Program-made: the position numbers and the translations under genes | Shown: in pieces, positions 4,488 to 8,375 of the stretch | Numbering within the stretch: position 1 is the first letter of the stretch | How the letters are laid out: the number at the start of each line of letters is the position of its first letter | IMG/VR virus record: IMGVR_UViG_3300023174_000087 | Coordinates: 1 to 64,000 of that record | DNA length: 64,000 bases | Direction: 5' to 3' (one strand) | Source: a virus | Notes under the pieces: model-generated | The model's input: only the letters and a program-made list of their open reading frames with translations | Databases searched by the model: none | Told to the model about the DNA's origin: nothing

Positions 4488-4533
4488 TTATCCACAAGAA
4501 ATGTCATGTGATTTACATCACAGGTGACGTCCC
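4488..4533. promoter_or_regulatory. DnaA box, CRP/GlxR-like site and GACGTC motif
   Basis: TTATCCACA is at 4488-4496. A perfect TGTGA-N6-TCACA palindrome is at 4507-4522, the consensus of CRP-family regulators (GlxR in actinobacteria). TGACGTCCC is at 4525-4533, half of the GGGACGTCCC palindrome seen in other gaps. They lie between the tRNA-Asp and the first gene of the operon. Confidence 0.6.
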
Positions 4534-4570
4534 GCATTTTTATGCACTGCATTGCATATTTATTTACTTG

Positions 4571-4644
4571 CGATCCGTACGGGACTTGAACCCGTGACCT
4601 CTACCGTGACAGGGTAGCGAACTAACCAACTATTCTAACGGACC
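4571..4644 (-). tRNA. tRNA-Asp (anticodon GTC)
   Basis: It forms a clear cloverleaf on the minus strand: acceptor GGTCCGT with ACGGATC (one G-T pair), anticodon stem CTACC/GGTAG with loop CTGTCAC (anticodon GTC), and T arm ACGGG-TTCAAGT-CCCGT. CCA is not encoded. A stop-associated hairpin (4648-4672) lies immediately upstream of its 5' end, and a DUF932 gene lies before that. Confidence 0.93.
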
Positions 4645-4647
4645 ATG

Positions 4648-4672
4648 TGAGCAGTTTTTATTCATGCTCAGG
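4648..4672. repeat. stop-associated inverted repeat, copy 1
   Basis: TGAGCAGTTT-N7-TGCTCAGG forms a hairpin with a GAGCA/TGCTC stem. It lies 19 nt after the stop of the DUF932 gene and 3 nt before the 5' end of the tRNA-Asp. Confidence 0.6.
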
Positions 4673-4691
4673 AATCTTTATTCAGTTGTTA

Positions 4692-5714
4692 TTATGCGAG
4701 AGACATTACGCCTTGCACAACTTTTAGTAAGCGATTTTTTTCTGCGTTGATAGCAGGGTCAAATCCACTCGCACTTGCAAGAATAGACTCGTTAGAACCA
4801 CCACGAGCAGAACGATACCAGTCAAGGCGCTCAGTTAGTGCATTGAACGCACCCCAAGCATTGCCAGCAATCATTCCATTGAATTCACCAGTGTAAATAT
4901 CATTGATTACATCAACTTTATTTTCCCACTTTTTGAAAGCACCCTTAGCATCTTTTTCTGGCTTAGGATAAGCAGCAAGAATGATTTTGTTGAAATCAAT
5001 CGCATTGACTTCTTTTTCAATCATTGCCTTAGCCATAGTATCAAATTCGTCCATGTAAGCATTAGCAAGACCAAGAGTCTCACGAGCAATTTGCACCTTG
5101 CCATTAGCAGTTTGTGTATGACGAATTTTGAATGATTGCTTGATGCCCTTGTTCTTCTTGCGACCAACGCCACCAAGAGCAAGGTTTAGAGTATTAGCGC
5201 ACACAACACGAACGGGTGTTATGCTTGCTTGAATAGCGATTGAGCCATCGTGTGATGTATTGATGAGCAAATAAGTTTTTACCTTATCAGATACACCATT
5301 AGGGTCAAGAATTGTTTCACGCTCAAGAGCAAGAGCGCCAAATACTACACGCCCACCCTTGATTGAGCCAGCAGTCTCCCAACGACCTCCGCCGTCTAGG
5401 ATATTATCACCAAATGAAAATAAATCTTCATTCTGCAATACATGGTAGCGCTCACCAACTACGCCAAGAATATCGGTTTGTGTATTGTCGGTAGGGTTTG
5501 TTCGCAATACATATTGATAGTTTTTGTCGCTTGTTAGATGTGATGGGGTTTCCAAATCTTCAAGACGAACATTCCAACCATTGAGACTTGCAGCCTCTAA
5601 CATTTCTGCGGTTGTTTTTTCTTCTGTGAATACGGTTCCCAATCCATGCCAAGCAGGTTCACGGAAAGATGCAAAAGATGTTTTTCCGTTTTGTATTTCT
5701 AGGTCATGTGCCAT
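4692..5714 (-). CDS. DUF932 family protein
   Basis: This 340-residue protein matches the DUF932 (phage/plasmid-like) family in length and in motifs I recall: an N-terminal PAWHGLGT segment, GVVGERYHVLQNEDLFSF near residue 90, and RVVCANTLNLAL near residue 178. The family is widespread in phages and plasmids of many bacteria. A role in DNA metabolism or anti-restriction has been suggested but not established. It has its own TGTCRG-type promoter (5752-5775) and is followed by a stop-associated hairpin and the tRNA-Asp. Confidence 0.88.
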   Translation of the reverse strand: MAHDLEIQNGKTSFASFREPAWHGLGTVFTEEKTTAEMLEAASLNGWNVRLEDLETPSHLTSDKNYQYVLRTNPTDNTQTDILGVVGERYHVLQNEDLFSFGDNILDGGGRWETAGSIKGGRVVFGALALERETILDPNGVSDKVKTYLLINTSHDGSIAIQASITPVRVVCANTLNLALGGVGRKKNKGIKQSFKIRHTQTANGKVQIARETLGLANAYMDEFDTMAKAMIEKEVNAIDFNKIILAAYPKPEKDAKGAFKKWENKVDVINDIYTGEFNGMIAGNAWGAFNALTERLDWYRSARGGSNESILASASGFDPAINAEKNRLLKVVQGVMSLA

Positions 5715-5751
5715 GAGTTATTTTTTCCTTTTCTGTTTGTTGATATAGATA

Positions 5752-5775
5752 ACTATACACTACCCAGCCGACAAA
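5752..5775 (-). promoter_or_regulatory. TGTCRG-N10 promoter for the DUF932 gene
   Basis: Read leftward, TTTGTCGG-N10-TATAGT. It shares the motif and the exact 10-nt spacing with six other leftward promoters. The transcript would have a leader of about 30 nt before the ATG at 5714. Confidence 0.65.
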
Positions 5776-5803
5776 TGCAAATCGGTATAGTTAAACATGG
5801 TAT

Positions 5804-5889
5804 AAATTGGACATTTTGATCATGTGACTAAAATAACATTCGTAAACACGGCGTGTCAATTTGACAAAGTTATCCACAGGCGGGACGTC
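5804..5889. promoter_or_regulatory. regulatory cluster upstream of the DUF932 gene
   Basis: In order: AATGTCCAATTT (minus strand, 5804-5815), an imperfect CRP-like site TGTGA-N6-TAACA (5823-5838), GCGTGTC (5851-5857), a DnaA box TTATCCACA (5870-5878) and GGGACGTC (5882-5889). The same elements recur in other leftward gaps. Confidence 0.5.
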
Positions 5890-5897
5890 AAAATTTT

Positions 5898-5922
5898 TGA
5901 GCCTTTTTAATTCATGCTCAGG
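5898..5922. repeat. stop-associated inverted repeat, copy 2
   Basis: TGAGCCTTTTTAATTCATGCTCAGG. One stem base differs from the others (GAGC/GCTC retained). Unlike the other copies it does not directly follow a stop codon. Confidence 0.5.
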
Positions 5923-5982
5923 AATTTTCACTACCATGTATATGGAACCAATATCCATATGTATGGTTCTTGTGAAATATAT

Positions 5983-6009
5983 TAAGCAGTTTACGTAGAC
6001 ATGCTCAGG
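5983..6009. repeat. stop-associated inverted repeat, copy 3
   Basis: TAAGCAGTTT...ATGCTCAGG lies 21 nt after the stop of the 6031-6450 gene. Confidence 0.5.
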
Positions 6010-6030
6010 TCCTTTATTAGTAGCCCCCTA

Positions 6031-6450
6031 CTAAATATCTACTCTGTCAACACTGGATGACAAGTAAGTTACACCTTGCGGTTCTGATACTGAATCAAAA
6101 TCAATATCATGAATTAAATTAATTGCTGATTCTTCATCTCTTGCATTAACTGTAATTGAATACATGACTGTAACTTCAACTTCGAATTCTTTTGTTAATT
6201 CAAAGCCCATAATTTCAGCAATTTCTTCTGCTTCTGTTTCATTAATTGAACCATGCTCAAGTGCATTGAGGGTCCATTCTTGCATTGATTCAACCATACG
6301 GTTTTTGTCTGCAGAATCTGCATATGAGCGCTGGGTTACCTTTTGAATGTGCTCTTCTAGTTCTGCAACACGCAATGTTGTTTTGGCTAAAGAATCACGA
6401 AGAAAGTCTTCTGTTGCATTTATAATTGTTGGGTATGTCTCTTGGTCCAT
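6031..6450 (-). CDS. conserved hypothetical protein
   Basis: This 139-residue acidic protein has an N-terminal coiled-coil-like region (residues about 10-60) and a C-terminal beta-rich half (EVEVTVMYSITVNARDEESA) resembling small phage proteins of unknown role. The promoter at 6484-6507 belongs to the TGTCRG family. The ribosome binding site is AGAAAGAGGC upstream of the ATG. Confidence 0.7.
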   Translation of the reverse strand: MDQETYPTIINATEDFLRDSLAKTTLRVAELEEHIQKVTQRSYADSADKNRMVESMQEWTLNALEHGSINETEAEEIAEIMGFELTKEFEVEVTVMYSITVNARDEESAINLIHDIDFDSVSEPQGVTYLSSSVDRVDI

Positions 6451-6483
6451 GGGGGCCTCTTTCTGTTAGTTGTAATATATTCA

Positions 6484-6507
6484 ATTGTACTGTTGGGCAC
6501 TGACAAA
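6484..6507 (-). promoter_or_regulatory. TGTCRG-N10 promoter for the 6031-6450 gene
   Basis: Leftward TTTGTCAG-N10-TACAAT, about 35 nt before the ATG at 6450. Confidence 0.6.
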
Positions 6508-6566
6508 TAGGGCCATACCCCTAGGGGATCCTTGCTAACCATAGCGTCAAACGCAAGGGGTAAGGC

Positions 6567-6591
6567 TGAGCAGTTTAGCGACATACTCAGG
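6567..6591. repeat. stop-associated inverted repeat, copy 4
   Basis: TGAGCAGTTTAGCGACATACTCAGG lies 36 nt after the stop of the 6628-7050 gene. Here flanking GGGTAAGG and CCTTACCC add an outer stem, making a longer hairpin. Confidence 0.55.
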
Positions 6592-6627
6592 TCGTTTTAG
6601 GAGAGGCTCTGAACCCCTTACCCTAAA

Positions 6628-7050
6628 TTATAGGTAGCGAGCCACCGCATTGTATGTAGAAGTATTTACAACTTCCTCATCTGTCATTTTGAGAATACGA
6701 ATTGCGTTAGTCATTTCGTCTTTCATCTCACGATAAGTGTGAGAGTGAATTACCTCAAAATCTTTTTCAGGTTCTGTTGGGAAGTTTCCTTCTTTTACTG
6801 TAATGTCAAAATCAACATTGAGGTTATTGTTCCAAGAGCGATAGTTTGTTCGTAGGTTTTCAGCCTTTGAGAAGTTAGCAATAGCCCACTCACCAATTTG
6901 CTTTTTCCAAGCCTCATAAGTAAGTTTGTATTGTGCTTCTTTTGCTTCTTGTGTTGCGTAGTCCATCTCTAACTTTGCTAGTGATGTTTCTAGTCCTGCG
7001 ATTACTCGTTGAGTAGGGATTTTTACTGAGATTGCTTTGCCTCTTGCCAT
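6628..7050 (-). CDS. conserved hypothetical protein
   Basis: This 140-residue protein (MARGKAISVKIPTQRVIAGL...) is mostly helical: an N-terminal coiled coil around residues 18-50, then LTYEAWKKQIGEWAIANFSK. Similar short proteins are familiar from actinophages without a known function. The start has AGAAAAGAGAAA upstream. It may be co-transcribed from the promoter at 7340-7363 through the hairpin at 7098-7122. Confidence 0.7.
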   Translation of the reverse strand: MARGKAISVKIPTQRVIAGLETSLAKLEMDYATQEAKEAQYKLTYEAWKKQIGEWAIANFSKAENLRTNYRSWNNNLNVDFDITVKEGNFPTEPEKDFEVIHSHTYREMKDEMTNAIRILKMTDEEVVNTSTYNAVARYL

Positions 7051-7097
7051 TTGTATTTCTCTTTTCTGTTTGTGGGTTATTTTTTAGGGGGTTTGTT

Positions 7098-7122
7098 TGA
7101 GCAGTTTTACATCTTGCTCAGG
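7098..7122. repeat. stop-associated inverted repeat, copy 5
   Basis: TGAGCAGTTTTACATCTTGCTCAGG lies 19 nt after the stop of the 7142-7306 gene and about 48 nt before the next ATG. Confidence 0.6.
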
Positions 7123-7141
7123 ATAGTTTCTCAGGTGAGAA

Positions 7142-7306
7142 TTACTTAGATGTCCAAGTTGTGTAACGAATTGTTCCATCAACATTGAGTTTTACACGAA
7201 CATTTCCATTTGCTTGTGGAGTGATTTCCTGAATTGTTCCTGTAACCTTTGACTTCTGTGTTGTGTAGAGGTCGCCTACCTTGTATGTGTTTGTTGCTAC
7301 TGACAT
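7142..7306 (-). CDS. small SH3-like/beta-barrel-type hypothetical protein
   Basis: This 54-residue protein (MSVATNTYKVGDLYTTQKSK...) alternates short strands (VGDLY, VTGTIQEI, VRVKLN, IRYTTW), suggesting a small beta barrel. I chose the ATG at 7306 because it follows an AAAGGAG ribosome binding site and the TGTCRG promoter at 7340-7363. An in-frame ATG at 7420 would add 38 residues and has its own leaderless-type TATTAT box (7427-7432), so two products are possible. Confidence 0.6.
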   Translation of the reverse strand: MSVATNTYKVGDLYTTQKSKVTGTIQEITPQANGNVRVKLNVDGTIRYTTWTSK

Positions 7307-7339
7307 TTTTGTTTCTCCTTTTGTTTGGTTGATAATCCA

Positions 7340-7363
7340 AGTATAACATTTCCTACTGACATT
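7340..7363 (-). promoter_or_regulatory. TGTCRG-N10 promoter for the 7142-7306 gene
   Basis: Leftward AATGTCAG-N10-TATACT, about 33 nt before the ATG at 7306. Confidence 0.65.
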
Positions 7364-7470
7364 TCGCAAGTCAGCCAAGAAAAATCTCACATCTTGGACT
7401 ACGGGGGTTGTTTTGTTCATAACTTAATAATAGCAAATAAATGTCATAAATACAAATCATAAATAGGATA

Positions 7471-7640: not shown

Positions 7641-8375
7641 TTATTTTTTACTTGCGCTAAATATAACATCACTCTTAGAGTATACACACAATGAACAAGA
7701 AACGCAAGCGCTACCGTTATTTGAAATAAGTGGAATTTGTTTATTATTCTCAGGACACTTAGCAGCAGGGCGCCCGATCATTTCTTTCATATCTGCTTGA
7801 CCAATAGCAAAGTTTTTAGCAAGGTATGCAAGGCGCACACCAGAATTAATCTTTAGGTCAACGCCTACCTTTACATTCTCGCTATCAGTACTAAAGTAAA
7901 GAGACAGGTTATCAATATCTTTTAGCATAAGGGCTGCAGATTGTACACGAGTGTATACCCAAAATTGAATATCAGTATTGTTTAGGATGACATTCTTCCA
8001 GGCCTGCGTATACGTATCGTTGAAGAAATCTCCGTCCCAGTGGATACGAAATAGCATAGGGGCGTCTTTCTTGATACAGTCTGCCTTGAAATCATTTATC
8101 ATATCAGTAAGCAGGTCCTGCATAGTATCTTGATCAGCGTCTTTTAGTAATTCCCAATTATGTAATAGGTTAGCCTTTACACCCTTGAAGAGTTTTTCGA
8201 GTTTACCTGCATAGCAGACACTCTCGCAAACAGTCGTTGCGCCAGGGCAAGAATAAGCCTTTCCTGCAGGGAGACCGAATGTGTTAGCAATTGCGGCTTG
8301 CTTTCCATTTTTTGTGACAAGGTTAGCCACCTTTCTATCATTAGAGCGTTTTAGTGTAAGTGTATTAGTAGTCAA
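7641..8375 (-). CDS. GP88-family (gene product 88-like) cysteine-rich protein
   Basis: This 244-residue protein has a Cys cluster near residues 43-55 (SCPGATTVCESVCYAGK) after an LPAGKAY segment and a C-terminal CVSCSLC cluster. The pattern matches the phage/plasmid family I recall as gene product 88 (Pfam GP88), whose fold and cysteines suggest metal or Fe-S binding. The biochemical role is not established. The likely start is TTG at 8375, overlapping the upstream stop by 11 nt. No in-frame ATG lies near the N-terminus. Confidence 0.7.
   Translation of the reverse strand: MTTNTLTLKRSNDRKVANLVTKNGKQAAIANTFGLPAGKAYSCPGATTVCESVCYAGKLEKLFKGVKANLLHNWELLKDADQDTMQDLLTDMINDFKADCIKKDAPMLFRIHWDGDFFNDTYTQAWKNVILNNTDIQFWVYTRVQSAALMLKDIDNLSLYFSTDSENVKVGVDLKINSGVRLAYLAKNFAIGQADMKEMIGRPAAKCPENNKQIPLISNNGSACVSCSLCVYSKSDVIFSASKK

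Follow-up and report, generated by a model that had tools for sequence, protein, structure and literature searches.

A small pseudoknot behind phage stop codons that may protect mRNA 3′ ends

A 64,000-nt stretch of the virus record IMGVR_UViG_3300023174_000087 (positions 1 to 64,000, here called the window; the full record is 115,201 bp) carries five short repeats among genes that, at 4–9 kb, are transcribed leftward, and the question that they raise is what a small element recurring just behind stop codons might be and do. An original prediction, made from the letters of the window, had described the repeats as GAGCA/TGCTC hairpins; this rightly recognized a stem-forming repeat and was incomplete, since the copies are H-type pseudoknots in which upstream bases pair into the loop. 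Comparison of sequences makes it almost certain that the element is an H-type pseudoknot of the form NNN-CC-UGAGYA-WG-N′N′N′-nn-AAAC-UGCUCA, and we consider it probable (roughly 0.6) that it is a 3′-end structure that, independently of any protein, shields the upstream mRNA from degradation.

The five repeats are present where the original prediction had placed them, on the strand of the genes (minus):

4648–4675, minus strand: pseudoknot copy 1, AUU-CC-UGAGCA-UG-AAU-AA-AAAC-UGCUCA, between the DUF932 stop and tRNA-Asp; full model in the scan
5898–5925, minus strand: pseudoknot copy 2, variant with a 5-bp stem 2, AUU-CC-UGAGC-AUG-AAU-...AAAAAG-GCUCA, then AAAATTTT
5983–6012, minus strand: pseudoknot copy 3, with a longer loop and two G-U pairs, GGA-CC-UGAGCA-UG-UCU-ACGU-AAAC-UGCUUA; full model in the scan
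6567–6594, minus strand: pseudoknot copy 4, CGA-CC-UGAGUA-UG-UCG-CU-AAAC-UGCUCA; full model in the scan
7098–7125, minus strand: pseudoknot copy 5, UAU-CC-UGAGCA-AG-AUG-UA-AAAC-UGCUCA; full model in the scan

Read in gene orientation, the copies follow CCTGAGYAWG...AAACTGCTYA, the 5898 variant excepted. The consensus proposed earlier is exact at 4648 and 7098, has one mismatch at 6567 and two at 5898, and meets a loop two bases longer at 5983. What had been missed is that the loop of each copy contributes three bases that pair with the three bases preceding the copy, which makes each window copy a pseudoknot of 28–30 nt. Allowing up to three mismatches, the pattern has five matches in the window (0.10 expected; 0 of 100 shuffles reach five), among which the match at 2308 is spurious, while the 5983 copy escapes the pattern owing to its longer loop; a search of the full 115,201-bp record with the canonical pattern found no copies beyond those already known. 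The 5898 copy represents a sub-type, UGAGC/GCUCA preceded by AAAA(A)G, that is also found in one further locus (L020) and in the Streptomyces plasmid pSTRVI02; stem 2 is one pair shorter in eighteen DUF932 3′ ends.

A protein scan of IMG/VR for DUF932 retained 80 of 420 related loci, a selection not based on the motif, and a strict pattern occurs in 156 distinct copies in these relatives and the window combined. Scans with the DNA pattern yielded at least 120 stretches from IMG/VR and 112 from GTDB representatives (about 15 matches expected by chance, as estimated from letter counts), and over all loci collected (IMG/VR and GTDB contigs) a pseudoknot descriptor matched 436 distinct copies. Large phage contigs carry 1–5 copies per roughly 100 kb, and the reversed pattern gives none. 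The presence of copies in related phages favours the original prediction.

Covariation was assessed on 286 copies picked on letters alone, not on pairing. In stem 1, the bases preceding CC pair with the bases following the invariant G; pair 1 is formed in 98.6% and pair 2 in 98.3% of these copies (51% and 42% after shuffling), and both are formed in 198 of 198 viral copies (100% in each viral set), while pair 3 is formed in 72% (shuffled, 42%) and position 4 is at chance. All four Watson-Crick pair types occur in this stem. Among stem 2 variants that depart from GAG, the three inner pairs are all retained in 30 of 32 (in shuffles, in 10.6 on average and 16 at most); the compensatory forms include UGAACA/UGUUCA, UAAGCA/UGCUUA, UUAGCA/UGCUAA, and UGGACA/UGUCCA, as well as UAGACA/UGUCUA, UGAUCA/UGAUCA, and UAGGCA/UGCCUA. 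Formal covariation counts were made on 52 sequences hand-chosen to display variants, in which 98.9% of cells pair and both sides change in 111 cells (30 when shuffled); slid registers pair in only 26–39%, and every one fails. Double-sided changes affect all three pairs of stem 1 and four of the six pairs of stem 2, so the two covarying, crossing helices that define an H-type pseudoknot are present. In the DUF932 relatives, which were not chosen by motif, stem 2 holds 76 G-U as opposed to 2 A-C combinations, an excess indicating that the selected molecule is the coding-strand RNA.

In this fold, stem 1 has 2–3 bp and is free in sequence. Stem 2 has 6 bp, is bridged by a two-base CC loop, is rich in purines on its 5′ side, and shows a preference for UGAGYA/UGCUCA; an A-rich loop ending in AAA(C) crosses stem 1. 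A 2-nt loop over a 6-bp purine-rich stem, combined with an A-rich loop over a 2–3-bp stem, is the classical H-type geometry. When CC was swapped for other dinucleotides, the descriptor had almost no matches. In the model, the invariant G and the likewise invariant C of AAAC can form a seventh stem 2 pair around one bulged base, and the CC and AAA loops would probably contact the major and minor grooves, respectively. Folded alone as a simple hairpin, stem 2 has little stability (−5 to −8 kcal/mol).

All copies belong to a single family tied to stop codons and acting, if at all, as RNA of the gene strand, as the original prediction had held. It had also placed four window copies 19–36 nt past a stop, and the distances from stop to CC are indeed 19, 21, 36, and 19 nt (stops at 4692, 6031, 6628, and 7142); the 5898 copy shares its stop (6031) with the 5983 copy, which comes first in this tandem pair. 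The neighbouring features are as follows, with a GP88 gene further upstream at 7641–8375:

4570–4644, minus strand: tRNA-Asp(gtc) (ARAGORN; Rfam RF00005, 63.8 bits), its 5′ end 3 nt after pseudoknot copy 1
4692–5714, minus strand: DUF932 gene (PHROG 1221), upstream of copy 1 (Pfam PF06067, E 5e-46; PHROG, 6e-99)
6031–6450, minus strand: open reading frame upstream of copies 3 and 2, with no Pfam or PHROG match
6628–7050, minus strand: open reading frame upstream of copy 4, with no Pfam or PHROG match
7142–7420, minus strand: open reading frame upstream of copy 5, with no Pfam or PHROG match

Across the viral sets, the nearest upstream gene lies on the same strand in about 90–97% of copies, with a median of 16–19 nt from stop to CC; in a dedicated stop search, stem 1 starts a median of 11 nt past the stop. 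The element thus lies after stop codons on the mRNA strand, as an exonuclease-blocking element of the 3′ untranslated region (UTR) should. Distance to the downstream gene varies widely, and that gene is convergent in 33 copies (all sets). The 247 copies with an assigned stop follow TAA in 182 cases (74%), TAG in 55, and TGA in 10 (background, 817/329/391); all three frames occur, with a median extension of 7 codons. TGA is rare, at 4% versus about 25% elsewhere, at the genes preceding the element in loci L001–L204. In many GTDB contigs (L211, L271, L219, L235, L258, L239, L293, and others), Cys-containing peptide frames of about 20–25 residues end at the element and are repeated across phyla (e.g., ..RFMIPRIAHCDEGCRILS* and ..MFPHATHCSACGSIRW).

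Several different features follow the element. A tRNA starts 3–14 nt downstream of 55 copies, and the order stop, pseudoknot, tRNA-Asp is kept in 52 of the 52 DUF932 relatives with enough sequence, despite differing tRNA sequences. Hammerhead ribozymes stand directly after five copies (L086, L089, two in L207, and L241), with a cleavage site, as read from sequence, 5–12 nt downstream of the copy; Rfam RF00008 confirms one of the L207 hammerheads, and Rfam finds a second hammerhead below the gathering score. TTTT occurs within 14 nt in 28% and 21% of copies in the two viral sets (12% and 6% at control stops), so that the claim that these structures lack a U-tract is true of most copies, the exceptions being these 21–28% of viral copies. 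The remaining copies are followed by the start region of the next gene or by an intergenic stretch. Positions +1 and +2 hardly ever hold a G (0–3%), and G stays infrequent up to about +6; this pattern is clearest in the viral sets and suggests an unstructured, single-stranded tail.

One contig of a Polynucleobacter metagenome-assembled genome (L347, genome G005) holds four pseudoknots in about 1.3 kb, two of which precede hammerhead ribozymes and the other two long A/T-rich hairpins, possible RNase III sites; a search for hammerheads in relatives of this genome gave matches in that genome only. In three loci (L220, L233, and L267), the DUF2800 RNA (Rfam RF02960) starts 1 nt past the pseudoknot, much as tRNAs and hammerheads do a little further on in other loci, and processing may take place at the 5′ end of this RNA. 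It was rejected as a regular partner, being confined to one prophage lineage; three further copies of it, in related genomes, have no pseudoknot upstream.

Among the annotated isolates or genomes with copies fitting the full model are Roseophage SIO1 and Lentibacter phage ICBM1 (both after ribonucleotide reductase), Paracoccus phage ParKuw1, cyanophage S-RIM4, mycobacteriophage Labelle, the crAss-like phage cr7_1, and Anoxybacillus phage A403. Forms with a weakened stem 2 occur in Celeribacter phage P12053L, Staphylococcus aureus phage 80 and its many relatives, Lactobacillus phage Lj771, Bacillus phage Page, and Latilactobacillus TMW. Phage 80, Lj771, and A403 carry the element between portal or head-morphogenesis genes and scaffold or capsid genes, and in Page it follows a head-to-tail joining gene. 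That phages and bacteria of many phyla carry the element argues against a lineage-specific protein partner.

Whole pseudoknots were also encountered in arrays of clustered regularly interspaced short palindromic repeats (CRISPR): 5 of 139 spacers in the array of Ignavibacteria Ch128a (L295 and L313) and one spacer in a Poribacteria array (L310) hold one, and every one of them faces the same way with respect to the repeat. The guides would be antisense to the pseudoknot RNA if the ATTGAGAC end is the handle of the CRISPR RNA. The idea that these spacers were acquired from RNA, and could serve as evidence of transcript ends, was dropped, given that the Ignavibacteria genome yielded no match to a reverse transcriptase and the Poribacteria genome has its reverse transcriptase at another cas1.

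Among the roles offered by the original prediction, a processing or mRNA-stabilising site fits best. In the mechanism that we propose, a 3′ end would arise a few bases downstream of the pseudoknot when RNase P processes a tRNA, a hammerhead ribozyme cleaves, transcription terminates at a U-tract, or an endonuclease cuts; for window copy 1, a predicted RNase P cut at tRNA-Asp would leave the pseudoknot at the 3′ end of the mRNA. Exonucleases moving 3′ to 5′ may then halt at the pseudoknot without the help of any phage protein, and the upstream gene would retain a stable mRNA whatever the fate of the remaining polycistronic transcript. We favour such an exonuclease block because the link to the upstream stop is fixed while the downstream context is free, because three unrelated makers of 3′ ends are found nearby, and because the element spans many phyla. 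Four observations weigh against it: the capsid-operon copies precede scaffold and capsid genes, which could suggest protection of downstream RNA; the UGAGYA preference and the invariant CC, G, and AAAC exceed what a generic roadblock would need and could mean a specific ligand or protein; stem 2 is weakened in the isolated S. aureus, Lactobacillus, and Bacillus phage copies; and some copies have no tRNA, ribozyme, or U-tract nearby.

The enrichment of TTTT (2.4- to 3.6-fold within 14 nt), the ending of several copies in CTTTTTATT, and the location of many copies at operon ends ahead of a new promoter region would also suit a pseudoknot-based transcription terminator, in which the folded RNA stops RNA polymerase with or without a U-tract. 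Such a terminator is nevertheless unlikely, as a U-tract is missing from about three quarters of copies, in many cases the next gene lies 10–30 nt on or a tRNA or hammerhead follows whose transcription is required, and stem 2 is weak as a hairpin; an intrinsic (Rho-independent) terminator, with a G+C-rich hairpin and a direct U-tract, was not found, TTTT standing close behind only the 5898 copy in the window. A block to 5′-to-3′ decay (RNase J), or a processing mark preserving the downstream RNA in the manner of viral exonuclease-resistant RNAs (xrRNAs), some of which use H-type pseudoknots, could account for the copies directly before the scaffold and capsid segment in phage 80, Lj771, A403, and Page. 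This too we regard as unlikely, and slightly more so, given that position is set by the upstream stop rather than by the downstream content, and that there is nothing to protect where convergent genes, terminators, or tRNAs lie downstream.

The strong sequence preference of stem 2 and the lack of variation in CC, G, and AAAC, together with a topology that resembles preQ1-I aptamers, could instead point to a binding site for a widely conserved protein or small molecule (a riboswitch-like aptamer or repressor site) acting on neighbouring genes; we judge this improbable, as no Rfam riboswitch matched, the associated genes differ widely, and the element sits in 3′ UTRs beside tRNAs and hammerheads with no consistent relation to a start codon. 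In some retroviruses, pseudoknots lying shortly after a stop codon stimulate readthrough, frameshifting, or reinitiation, and a stimulator of this kind was considered and rejected here as very improbable on the grounds of frame, stop usage, and the absence of an open extension; a convergent gene or tRNA, moreover, often lies downstream. The outer arms form a dyad and several copies occur per genome, as would be expected of a DNA element (an operator, recombination site, or replication site), yet the pseudoknot covariation, the asymmetry between G-U and A-C in stem 2, and the fixed orientation to the gene identify an RNA and leave such an element scarcely any probability; the regulator-binding and recombination sites of the original prediction are thereby contradicted, and the lack of strand preference and of RNA covariation that marks a dyad operator was not found. 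Nor do the copies form the tandem pseudoknots before a ToxN-like gene that characterize a type III toxin-antitoxin RNA; they are dispersed behind different genes.

Other signals were noted in the window. A DnaA-box-like TTATCCACA has ten sites in the window (0.8 expected), at 996, 1041, 4488, 5870, 11260, 12042, 12083, 14185, 33265, and 38555, and 422 in the 80 related loci (18 in shuffles); several lie in intergenic regions adjoining pseudoknots. The palindrome-like GGGACGTC has six window matches (0.1 expected), with intergenic sites at 4526, 5882, 7541, and 8757, and these sites are possible regulator operators. A separate conserved hairpin, TTAGTAGGGGGCTACTAA, lies at about 6018–6036 (minus strand), across the end of the gene that immediately precedes the 5983 copy, and is also present in L001, L018, L043, and other loci.

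At the gathering score, the families of Rfam 15 matched only tRNAs in the whole window, and a permissive Rfam search of 4560–7160 gave only chance-level matches below threshold. Open-access papers, queried both with sequence strings and with topics, gave no description of the pseudoknot family, subscription papers being outside the scope; the element is thus likely to be previously undescribed. Its kind, a structural 3′ UTR element and an H-type pseudoknot, is already known, while the family and its spread appear to be new. Stabilising 3′-end hairpins, such as repetitive extragenic palindromic (REP) elements and terminator stems, lie just after stops, number several per genome, and have been proposed to stop 3′-to-5′ exonucleases; the phage element resembles them in its position after stops and its several copies per genome and differs in being a pseudoknot with a covarying 2–3-bp stem and invariant loop letters that is common to unrelated phages. 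The preQ1-I riboswitch aptamer is also a tiny H-type pseudoknot with an A-rich third loop, whereas the element described here has no Rfam match, has other loop letters, and lies outside 5′ leaders. The start-associated sequences of cluster K mycobacteriophages, to which the original prediction had likened the repeats, lie at translation starts, and the present element lies at stops; the DUF2800 RNA is a different RNA of 158 nt and a mere neighbour of the pseudoknot. In phages T2 and T4, the gene 32 mRNA contains an H-type pseudoknot with coaxial stems that serves as a 5′ translational operator, 67 nt upstream of the start codon (PMC3014915); that pseudoknot belongs to one gene of T4-like phages, whereas the 3′ element is multi-copy. 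According to the literature, the xrRNAs of plant and animal RNA viruses are likewise small pseudoknotted folds, thought to resist exonucleases mechanically; they block 5′-to-3′ Xrn1 in eukaryotes, whereas the phage element is found in DNA phages and bacteria, at 3′ ends, and with another sequence and size. A bolder reading, which we put forward tentatively as possible rather than probable, is that the element represents a universal, protein-free class of 3′-to-5′ exonuclease-resistant RNA of prokaryotic viruses, 28–30 nt long and present in phages of many bacterial phyla, which would be used with tRNAs, hammerheads, or terminators to split polycistronic mRNA into separately stabilised units and would mirror in function the xrRNAs that eukaryotic viruses possess.

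The element is a structured RNA present in hundreds of phage sequences, and evidently in many more, that is absent from Rfam 15; it would rank among the more widespread unrecognized RNA elements of prokaryotic viruses. If it does protect 3′ ends, it would give phages a host-independent control over the lifetime of single genes within polycistronic mRNAs, would account for the tRNAs and hammerhead ribozymes that directly follow phage genes, and would provide bacteria with an mRNA stabiliser that is both short and portable.

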